A stretch of 38,314 bases of DNA, taken from Vibrio tasmaniensis 1F-187 (lineage in GTDB: Bacteria; Pseudomonadota; Gammaproteobacteria; Enterobacterales; Vibrionaceae). Under the pieces are notes generated by a model. That model saw only the letters and a program-made list of their open reading frames with translations. It made no database searches and was not told where the DNA came from. This document shows positions 30,983 to 38,314 of this stretch, piece by piece. The position numbers and the translations under genes are program-made. The DNA is taken from positions 1 to 38,314 of the forward strand of contig NZ_AJZM02000323.1 in the NCBI RefSeq assembly GCF_000272405.2, in the 5' to 3' direction. The first letter of the stretch is position 1, and each line of letters starts with the position of its first letter.

Positions 30983-31657
30983 TCAAATCCATCCGCGCTC
31001 TGCAAAAGAGATAACTTCGCCATCTCCAACGACAAAATGGTCGAGAATTCGGATGTCCACTAGTGCCAATGCGTCGGTTAATCTGCGTGTAATTCGCCTA
31101 TCTGCTTGGCTTGGCTCTGCGACACCGGAAGGATGGTTGTGCGCTAGGATTAAAGCGGCAGCATTATGATGAAGTGCCCGTTTAACCACTTCTCTCGGGT
31201 AAACAGATGCTGCATCGATGGTTCCTTCAAACATCACTTCATCCTTTATTACTCTGTTTTGGTTATCTAGGAACAATATGTAGAAGGCTTCTCGCTGGCG
31301 ATCACGCAATATACTCGAAAGATACAACTTGGTGTGACTTGGGCTAGTTAGTGCATCCCCTCGAGATAAAGTCTCGGCCAAATAACGTTGCGTCATCTCC
31401 AAAACAGCCTGCAACTGGACATATTTCGCCTGCCCCATCCCTTTATGGGCACAAAACTCAGCCTCCGTTGCAGAAAAAAGATGGCGAAGCGAACCAAAAT
31501 CTTTGATCAACTTGTCTGATAGCTCTAAAACATTCATTCCTTGTGTGCCCGTTCGAAGAAATATAGCTAACAACTCCGCATCACTTAAGGAGTCGGGGCC
31601 TCTACTCAGTAACTTTTCTCTTGGCATCGACTCAACAGGCATTTTACTTATAGGCAT
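30983..31657 (-). CDS. radC: RadC family protein (JAMM domain)
   Basis: 224 residues: an N-terminal helix-hairpin-helix part ([20 protein letters not shown]) and a C-terminal JAMM metalloprotease-like domain with [16 protein letters not shown]. The metal ligands are intact. Despite its name a repair role is not established for this family. It is divergent from coaBC with a 223-base gap, the usual arrangement. Confidence 0.93.
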
Positions 31658-36735: not shown

Positions 36736-37602
36736 ATGATTTATAGTATGACCGCGTACGCGCGCAAAGAAGTAAAAGGCGATTGGGGTACAGCAGTATG
36801 GGAAATCCGTAGTGTAAACCAACGCTACCTAGAAACTTACTTCCGTATGCCTGAACAGTTCCGTGGTTTAGAGCCAATCCTACGCGAGCGTTTCCGTAAG
36901 CGTCTAGCTCGCGGCAAGGTTGAATGTAACCTACGTTTTGAAGCAAACCCAGCAGCGAAAGGCGAGCTAAGCATTAACGAAGGTTTGGCTCAGCAAGTAA
37001 TCAATGCTGCTAACCAAGTAATGACGATGACAGGTGAAGACAGCCGTTTGAACCCATTCCAAATCATGAACTGGCCTGGCGTAATGGAAACGCCAGAGCA
37101 AGACATGGATGCCATCAACAAAGATCTACTTGAAGCATTCAACGATGCAATCGCAGAGTTCATTGACGCTCGTGCTCGTGAAGGCGAAAACATGAAAGCG
37201 CTCATCGTTCAGCGTTTAGATGCAATCACTGAAGAAGTCGTTAAAGTTCGTGCACGCATGCCTGAGATCCTAGAATGGCAACGTGAGCGTCTTCTTACCA
37301 AATTTGAAGATGCGAAGATTGAACTTGAAGGTTCTCGCGTTGAGCAAGAGCTTATCCTACTGGCTCAGAAGTCAGACGTAGCAGAAGAACTAGACCGCCT
37401 AGACTCTCACGTGAAAGAAGCGAATGTAGTATTGAAGAAAGGTGGCGCCTGTGGCCGTAAACTTGACTTCATGATGCAAGAGTTCAACCGTGAATCAAAC
37501 ACGCTAGCATCTAAGTCTATCAGCACAGACATCACAGCATCGGGCGTTGAGCTTAAAGTTCTTATCGAACAGATGCGTGAGCAGATCCAGAATATAGAAT
37601 AG
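36736..37602 (+). CDS. yicC: YicC family endoribonuclease
   Basis: 288 residues from the ATG at 36736, which follows AGGAAA and gives the conserved MIYSMTAYARKEV start; the frame is open 67 codons further up, across the promoter region, which I reject as coding. EIRSVNQRYLETYFR near the N-terminus and the C-terminal EFNRESNTLASKS... are the YicC and DUF1732 signatures. E. coli YicC is an endoribonuclease acting on RyhB. The 3' end is a known insertion site for genomic islands, and an integrase gene follows here. Confidence 0.94.
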   Translation: MIYSMTAYARKEVKGDWGTAVWEIRSVNQRYLETYFRMPEQFRGLEPILRERFRKRLARGKVECNLRFEANPAAKGELSINEGLAQQVINAANQVMTMTGEDSRLNPFQIMNWPGVMETPEQDMDAINKDLLEAFNDAIAEFIDARAREGENMKALIVQRLDAITEEVVKVRARMPEILEWQRERLLTKFEDAKIELEGSRVEQELILLAQKSDVAEELDRLDSHVKEANVVLKKGGACGRKLDFMMQEFNRESNTLASKSISTDITASGVELKVLIEQMREQIQNIE

Positions 37603-37632
37603 AATCCAACCAAATCCTCACCAATCTACAAG

Positions 37633-37657
37633 GCCCTTATTTAAAAGGGCTTTTTTT
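37633..37657 (+). terminator. Intrinsic terminator after yicC
   Basis: GCCCTT/AAGGGC stem (37633-37638 with 37645-37650) with a six-base loop and seven T residues. Confidence 0.9.
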
Positions 37658-37684
37658 ATTTCTTTGTATGTTCACGTCCATAGA

Positions 37685-37797
37685 GATCTACTAAAAGCCA
37701 AGAATAAATGGGGAGTATTATGGGTGGCACTTTGCAATTCACTCCCCAAAATAGTATAAAAACCGAAAGTACTCCCCATATTTTGTAATAGTAGATC
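37685..37797. repeat. Inverted and direct repeats upstream of the integrase gene
   Basis: ACTCCCCA occurs three times: 37709-37716 (minus), 37741-37748 and 37771-37778 (plus). The first and third copies extend to a perfect 10-base inverted repeat, ATGGGGAGTA (37708-37717) and TACTCCCCAT (37770-37779). An outer 8-base pair GATCTACT/AGTAGATC (37685-37692 with 37790-37797) brackets them. Likely roles are integrase arm sites, excisionase sites, or repressor sites of the island. Confidence 0.6.
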
Positions 37798-37838
37798 AAG
37801 ACAATTGCATTTATCCCCATAAATTCAAGGAGATCGAG

Positions 37839-38314
37839 ATGAGTAATCTCAACGTCAAGCGAGTCAAGAAATTAATAAAAGACAAAGAAATAGGTCGTCA
37901 TGCTGGTGGGGGTGGTTTCTATCTTATGGTCCCCAAAGTTGGTCAAGCATATTGGATGTTAAGATACACCTTTTTTAAGAAAAGAAAGGAAGTGACTATT
38001 GCTAAGGTAGATGAACTTTCTCTTGCTGACGCAAGATTAAAAGCCGCAGAGCTACGAAAACAAATTAATGAAGGAATCAATCCAATTGCTGAAAGAAAAC
38101 GAAGCAAGCAGGCCGATATACATATAGTTGATGATCTTTTTATAGACTGGTACAAAGATTTAGAAAAGAGGTTAAAATATCCAAGTATTCCTAAACGTAT
38201 CTATCTAAAAGAGATCGCGCCTCAAATAGGGCAGTACACGTTGAAACGAGTTACTCCTTTGGATATTCGCAACATCATCCAAATAGTCGCAGACAGTGGC
38301 CGTCCAACCACAGC
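37839..38314 (+). CDS. int: Tyrosine recombinase integrase, P4 type (partial, C-terminus beyond window)
   Basis: 158 codons are visible and the frame runs off the right edge, so the catalytic domain (R-H-R-Y residues) is not seen. The N-terminal arm-binding domain is clear: IGRHAGGGGFYLMVPK, a W-x-L-R-Y core (YWMLRYTFFKKRKEVTI) and LADARLKAAELRKQINEGINP, as in DUF4102 integrases of islands and P4-like elements. The core-binding domain starts around residue 90 (IHIVDDLFIDWYKDL). Start ATG 37839 follows AAGGAGATCGAG, a strong ribosome site. The gene lies 237 bases after yicC and reads away from it. It is probably the first gene of an island inserted at the 3' end of yicC. Confidence 0.9.
   Translation, partial: MSNLNVKRVKKLIKDKEIGRHAGGGGFYLMVPKVGQAYWMLRYTFFKKRKEVTIAKVDELSLADARLKAAELRKQINEGINPIAERKRSKQADIHIVDDLFIDWYKDLEKRLKYPSIPKRIYLKEIAPQIGQYTLKRVTPLDIRNIIQIVADSGRPTT

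Follow-up and report, generated by a model that had tools for sequence, protein, structure and literature searches.

The question raised by this locus is what begins behind yicC at the right-hand edge of the sequence, that is, whether the integrase gene that runs off the contig there marks one end of an integrative island and, if so, of what kind. The yicC gene is a known insertion place of several island families. The whole stretch of DNA analyzed here, referred to as the window, is the complete contig C322 (G000:C322) of 38314 bp, and the assembly to which it belongs comprises 5.3 Mb in 435 contigs. We consider it likely that an integrative island of the AlpA/RadC/YagK type is inserted at the yicC 3' end and that its left end, with attL and int, lies at the end of this contig.

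In the window, yicC, the insertion target, occupies positions 36736-37602 (+) and matches TIGR00255 over the entire profile (1-291 of 291; E-value 5.6e-115). Its last six codons together with the stop constitute the 21-bp attL core, CAGATCCAGAATATAGAATAG (37582-37602, +), the partner of which is located on another contig of the same genome, C82. Beyond attL, within the island, yicC is followed by a terminator-like hairpin (37630-37653, +) that is weak evidence alone (one found versus a mean of 0.8 after shuffling), and 236 bases separate the yicC stop from the start codon of int. The latter (37839-38314, +) is the 5' part of a gene for a yicC-specific P4-type tyrosine integrase, cut at the contig end, whose product matches the PF13356 arm-binding domain (6.4e-20) and, just under the cut-off, the SAM-like domain PF14659. 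The open reading frame (37839-38312) contains no stop codon and is still open where the window ends, and the P4-type integrase foreseen shortly after yicC was found as described. Its missing 3' part is absent from the assembly, in which a 247-residue C-terminal query retrieved a single distant integrase (C176, 32%). Apart from the island, window positions 31037-31296 are 67% similar to the island radC region described below and probably represent the chromosomal radC.

When the assembly was searched with the last 17 bases of the core (up to two mismatches), only two places were found, the window and position 2616 of C82. Contig C82 (3090 bp) carries the end of a gene for a Rep-like protein, hipB, hipA, the attR core CAGATCCAGAACATTGAATAA (2613-2633), then CAGTTCGTCAGTAACACACTG and a cold-shock gene. 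The flank beyond the attR core is nearly the same as the sequence directly following yicC in island-free relatives (e.g., L074 and L077), and the alignments of C82 to nine such relatives (L074-L077, L079-L081, L083, and L084) start at 2613, the first base of the core; it is from these two observations that C82 is known to hold attR and the native flank. The far att repeat proposed as a check in the original prediction is thus present, with the native right flank after it, and, as int stands beside attL, it is confirmed that an integrative island has its left edge here, at the end of yicC. Contig C128, carrying gmk, was rejected as the right flank, since gmk is not adjacent to the insertion and the flank is the cold-shock gene on C82. 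The attL and attR cores are identical at 18 of 21 bases. The former ends with ATAGAATAG, an ending shared by seven of ten other lineage members, whereas the attR version matches the form present in the empty relatives L080 and L084, which suggests that the yicC 3' end in the window was probably derived from the island. In G167 (L165), the closest relative by yicC (97%), a different island of about 8.4 kb occupies the same site, and the first 25 bases of its right flank are as in C82.

A composite arm-type motif, GGGGAGT-N4-TGGGTRG, scored with up to two mismatches, was found near both ends. The only match in the window (37710-37727, +; no mismatches) lies 128 bp right of the attL core, with 0.15 matches expected in the whole window at this threshold, and two inverted GGGGAGT half-sites were found by motif search at 37741-37747 and 37771-37777 (both -). 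In all 12 distinct islands of this integrase type (the one studied here, those of V. lentus, G235, G195, M. spartinae, G187, G024, G034, G081, G205, and G218, and, more distantly related, G017) the motif lies to the right of the attL core at a distance of 127-129 bp, and in all eight for which attR was found it lies to the left of the attR core at 91-93 bp. On C82 this distance is 91 bp, and shuffled C82 gave 0.017 matches on average. Stray matches comprised one in C185, another contig of the same genome, and one in G235, outside the island. Fifteen other yicC islands were also examined, and none of the 14 with the left end read (that of G247 lies outside the stretch) has the motif, nine of these 14 showing a second core. 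The presence of the motif at its usual distance on C82 ties this contig to the integrase type independently of synteny. The composite repeat is probably the arm site of the integrase and would be bound by its arm domain.

Used as a DNA query, the complete G024 island (17.2 kb from core to core) retrieved C322, C98, and C82 (83%, 80/75/70%, and 70/75%, respectively), with order and orientation kept, and, more weakly, C185; the same three contigs are likewise collinear with the island of G235. They remain separate in the assembly: int itself is interrupted by a gap, and others lie to the left of C98 and between this contig and C82. Because its gene order and identity match those of related islands, C98 is very probably the body of the yicC island, lying between C322 and C82. 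The backbone on C98, a contig of 16.5 kb, comprises genes for RadC (PF04002, 2.3e-44) and two DUF2787 proteins, a regulator-like gene without a Pfam match and a small gene that looks, by eye, lipoprotein-like, followed on the opposite strand by RNase H, AlpA (PF05930, 3e-25), and YagK/YfjJ (PF11726, 5.1e-34). C185 (L118) is a second related island body in this genome, encoding RadC, two DUF2787 proteins, RNase H, AlpA, and a YagK protein keeping the HUH pattern, and C98 could therefore sit elsewhere. As the body of the yicC island C185 was rejected and C98 preferred, since on C185 AlpA and RNase H stand beside RadC, as in G274, and the matches to the lineage are shorter. By eye, C185 also contains type I restriction genes and a gene resembling LRAT; a similar set of co-occurring Vibrio genes has been listed as linked to phage infectivity (PMC12409351). 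Copies of YagK were found in the assembly only on C98 and C185, so that those expected between C98 and C82 are either in the gap or absent.

A common plan is shared by the islands whose integrases are 96-100% identical to the V. proteolyticus enzyme, i.e., int, slot 1, radC, two DUF2787 genes, the regulator, slot 2, RNase H, AlpA, YagK copies, Rep, and attR. Both ends were read in G024, G034, G235, G195, G205, and G187 (16.0 to 28.7 kb); G081 follows the plan but lacks the right end, and G034 has no Rep match. In G034 (L062:12164) and G205 (L151) the attR core is followed by the apparent left end of another island, which suggests tandem insertion, and in G034 a second integrase-like stretch comes after that left end. 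The Rep-like protein of C82 is 58-64% identical to the proteins beside attR in G024 and G235, while in G195, G205, and G187 the protein at this position is only 25-26% similar; the C82 fragment itself gave weak winged-helix matches under the cut-offs. For the HipA protein of C82 (HipA_C, 9.7e-51), the other lineage islands gave no good match and G071 none at all, and two loci at 47% were retrieved from viral contigs. Judging from these comparisons, hipBA is an addition beside attR in this genome, outside the shared plan. The element is of an ordinary kind, and its lineage was not found described in the literature searched: in titles, beginnings of abstracts, and passages of open-access papers there was no description of a yicC island with the RadC-DUF2787-AlpA-YagK backbone.

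The integrase piece is 91% identical to the V. lentus integrase, its closest named relative, and 80-82% identical to yicC-site integrases of other Vibrio species and Marinomonas spartinae. The V. lentus gene (L050/L148, G181) contains an in-frame TAG, and its 3' part is followed by genes resembling, by eye, a sulphation/exopolysaccharide cluster. Relatives at E ≤ 1e-60 occur in 38 of the 227 genomes of the genus. No near relatives were found on plasmids or phages, as each of the 91 plasmid and 42 phage records matched by the piece is below 60% identity. An integrase gene 60-80% similar in part was found in five of 5426 E. coli genomes, and in the two of these that were opened (GABEEC10 and E14) an int-like gene stands behind yicC. 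Between the M. spartinae yicC island and V. proteolyticus the integrases are 97.5% identical, from which it follows that such islands cross genera. An integrase tree of 39 rows, with broken or short rows omitted (e.g., G169, G190, G228, G049, G156, G271, and G193), placed the window integrase with the RadC-backbone islands (100/99), the rows of the window and V. lentus being fragments with 39% and 44% of columns filled and the window having been classed with the backbone islands in advance because of C98. In this tree G071 is the sister branch (98/88), and G247 falls in another part together with two MobI-linked yicC integrases.

According to the mechanism that we propose, the P4-type integrase would recombine the 21-bp core, so that the yicC end is replaced by island bases and the gene stays intact, and its arm sites would be the composite repeats conserved close to either end. 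The backbone would consist of RadC, two DUF2787 proteins, the regulator-like gene, RNase H, AlpA, YagK/YfjJ, and the winged-helix Rep-like protein. AlpA is proposed as the excisionase from two precedents: it was necessary and sufficient for activation and excision of a Vibrio PICMI (PMC10803314), and an AlpA-family Xis excises GI21, a yicC-type island (PMC8978831). YagK/YfjJ, perhaps of the HUH type, and Rep would serve the excised form, which HipBA may stabilise, and transfer from cell to cell would need a helper.

The family PF11726 (YagK_YfjJ) is presumably what is labelled Gp2-like in I55-type islands, which are compared below. Five aligned islands (G024, G235, G195, G205, and G187) have three YagK copies in a row. 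The copy adjoining Rep keeps an HYH pattern and the tyrosine of SYLAK in all five, the middle copy has HHH in four, with arginine replacing the tyrosine in all five, and the first copy has lost both HUH and tyrosine in every case. The sole sequenced copy of C98 is without these residues, whereas that of C185 keeps both. One catalytic-type copy matched PF23343 (REP_ORF2-G2P) weakly, under the cut-off. Searches by sequence found no solved structure for YagK, and a model built from 13 sequences reached a mean pLDDT of 84 in the best of five, with 63-69 in the others. Compared with the PDB, the model gave one match at E ≤ 0.001, to the HUH nuclease domain of parvovirus NS1 (TM 0.28/0.33); among the 50 PDB matches listed there were 12 NS1/AAV Rep nucleases and 27 amidohydrolase-type enzymes, while of the 50 viral matches listed the five with names were all microvirus replication proteins and the other 45 were nameless. 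YagK is thus perhaps an HUH protein, for which the weak likenesses of the model provide a lead rather than proof.

The gene set resembles that of phage-carried islands more than that of SXT-mobilised ones. As far as the source was covered, the Pseudomonas islands I23, I44, and I55 likewise have a tyrosine integrase at one end and AlpA near the other, encode RadC, HTH, and inovirus Gp2-like proteins with no transfer genes seen, and carry variable cargo, including defence genes, beside int; transfer by a jumbo phage has been described for them (PMC12595487). Here int is in the window and AlpA lies on C98 towards the other end, provided that C98 is linked as proposed. The Pseudomonas islands differ in their target (tmRNA instead of yicC), and the covered parts of that report name neither DUF2787 nor RNase H (PMC12595487). 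YqaJ of the I55-like class was found in none of the 22 C98 proteins.

As regards transfer alone, it is possible, though we would not expect it, that the island moves by conjugation, with a helper other than SXT/R391 and an oriT of an unrecognised type. This would agree with the crossing of genera seen between M. spartinae and V. proteolyticus and with the mobilisation of other yicC islands by IncC plasmids or SXT ICEs (PMC8409611, PMC7449626, PMC4344509). MobI (PF19456), however, present in 22 of the 227 genomes of the genus, was not found in this one, and among the islands 27 MobI loci compared by BLAST matched only G247, G071, and G281.

For the structure of the locus, it is rather improbable that two tandem islands stand behind yicC, the first contributing int and the second the C82 end with Rep, hipBA, and attR. 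The arrangements in G034 and G205 suggest that tandem insertion occurs in the lineage, but C82 has the arm motif of this very lineage at the usual distance, its Rep-like protein has its counterparts beside attR in G024 and G235, and the 17-bp end of yicC occurs at no third place in the assembly.

A single island of the AlpA/RadC/YagK type, preferred here, could have been confused with the SXT/R391-mobilizable genomic island (MGI) that the original prediction favoured, with which it shares the target gene and the position of int. The query for an SXT-type oriT was a region from five mobI loci that agree at about 96% and that we take to be SXT/R391 ICEs, as mobI stands (by eye) beside a UmuC/RumB-like gene. 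The whole assembly gave no match (the best alignment, of 19 bp, had E 0.8), and neither did C98, C82, or any of seven islands of the clade, six of them with both ends and G081 without the right one. Among the searched loci, BLAST found the oriT region only in G247 (70% over 301 bp) and G071 (80% over 101 bp); a profile including these two found the same two, and, both being in the profile, only the BLAST matches are independent. Since the published likeness of an MGI oriT is 63% over 282 bp (PMC5704250), a more distant mimic could be missed. By their integrases, G247 belongs to another clade and G071 is sister to that of the window. The sister island (L067), whose integrase has an in-frame TAG, lacks the arm motif of the lineage. 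DUF927 (MGI cds8) was found by Pfam in none of the 22 C98 proteins. With oriT, MobI, and DUF927 absent and an integrase clade associated with another backbone, the MGI label had to be rejected for the sequenced parts. That an oriT mimic is hidden within the unsequenced gaps, making the island an MGI after all, is very unlikely, even though the sister branch G071 carries one. A decayed remnant, in which the integrase is left over without a working island, as the interrupted V. lentus integrase and G218 (int with no backbone within 20 kb) might suggest, is likewise very unlikely, given that this genome has the right junction, hipBA, an open backbone set, and an int piece without a stop.

The AlpA/RadC/YagK-type island can also be set against other known systems. 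MGIVflInd1 and other SXT/R391 MGIs share the 3' end of yicC and int beside attL, but no oriT mimic or DUF927 gene was found here and the backbone is different (PMC4344509, PMC5704250). GI21, GISpuPO1, GISspANA3, and GIPspSM9913 have a yicC-type target, att sites of 9-21 bp, an AlpA-family excisionase, and hipA-hipB beside attR, like the island studied here, whereas in GI21 AlpA is near int, a type I restriction system is in the middle, and the gene table has no RadC, DUF2787, or YagK gene (PMC8978831). The MobI-coding islands, e.g., MGIVmi1, share the yicC target and restriction/defence cargo, while the genome studied is without MobI and the two MobI-linked yicC integrases belong to another clade (PMC7449626). 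SGI1-like yicC elements, e.g., IEEcoMOD1, share the yicC 3' end and a similar size and are defined by mpsA, traG, traN, and sgaC (PMC8409611); no Tra-family match was found among the 22 C98 proteins. Finally, the Vibrionaceae PICMI satellites have an integrase with AlpA and, in some, defence cargo, but they target fis instead of yicC, have a prototype of 6.1 kb, and require a primase (PMC10803314).

As to the cargo, C98 has, left of radC, genes for a PhzF-like protein, a weak RidA-like match, and a LysR regulator, and in the second slot Sel1, DUF1835/DUF3658, TPR, GST, LysE, and SgrR-like genes, so the sequenced cargo of this island looks metabolic. PADLOC, applied to eight of the 22 C98 genes, hipB, and hipA, recognised no defence system and gave only weak matches to candidate families, for HipB, HipA, and a TPR protein. 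In the relatives, PADLOC matches in slot 1 were obtained for all seven islands examined (two of the four slot genes of G235 were used and G034 was not included), namely Ssp (G081), Nsn (G187), a type IIG system (G205), a Ppl-like protein (G195), beta and cll (G235), and methyltransferases (G024 and M. spartinae). The expectation of defence cargo consequently holds for the relatives, which carry such genes beside int, but not for the sequenced part of this island, where none was recognised. In slot 2, G195, G034, G187, and G081 carry S-type pyocin proteins, G235 a PAAR-type toxin, G205 SIR2 and an SMC-like ATPase, and G024 one protein that gave no match. The S-type pyocins, near RNase H, differ in their C-terminal domains (L150:8742-11529, L105:3303-5804, L062:3522-5912, and L153:7095-9422), and at one of these four loci a colicin-type immunity gene adjoins. 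There seems to be a tendency towards defence by int and offence by AlpA, to which exceptions exist and of which the sequenced part of this island shows neither.

It is tempting, although we would sooner doubt than believe it as a whole, to see here an undescribed, yicC-specific, satellite-like lineage of Vibrio and Marinomonas, with an anti-phage slot between int and radC, a bacteriocin/PAAR-toxin slot between the regulators and RNase H-AlpA, replication by one catalytic and two degenerate HUH copies, and carriage by a helper phage. The MGI label is easily given from the yicC site alone, and yet the site and the position of int do not reveal the mode of movement: one integrase lineage has the RadC/AlpA/YagK backbone, and its sister has an SXT oriT mimic. 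The fixed geometry of the arm sites makes it simple to assign a yicC island from the sequence at a contig edge, and the two-slot order, if general, would be a place to seek new defence systems and bacteriocins.
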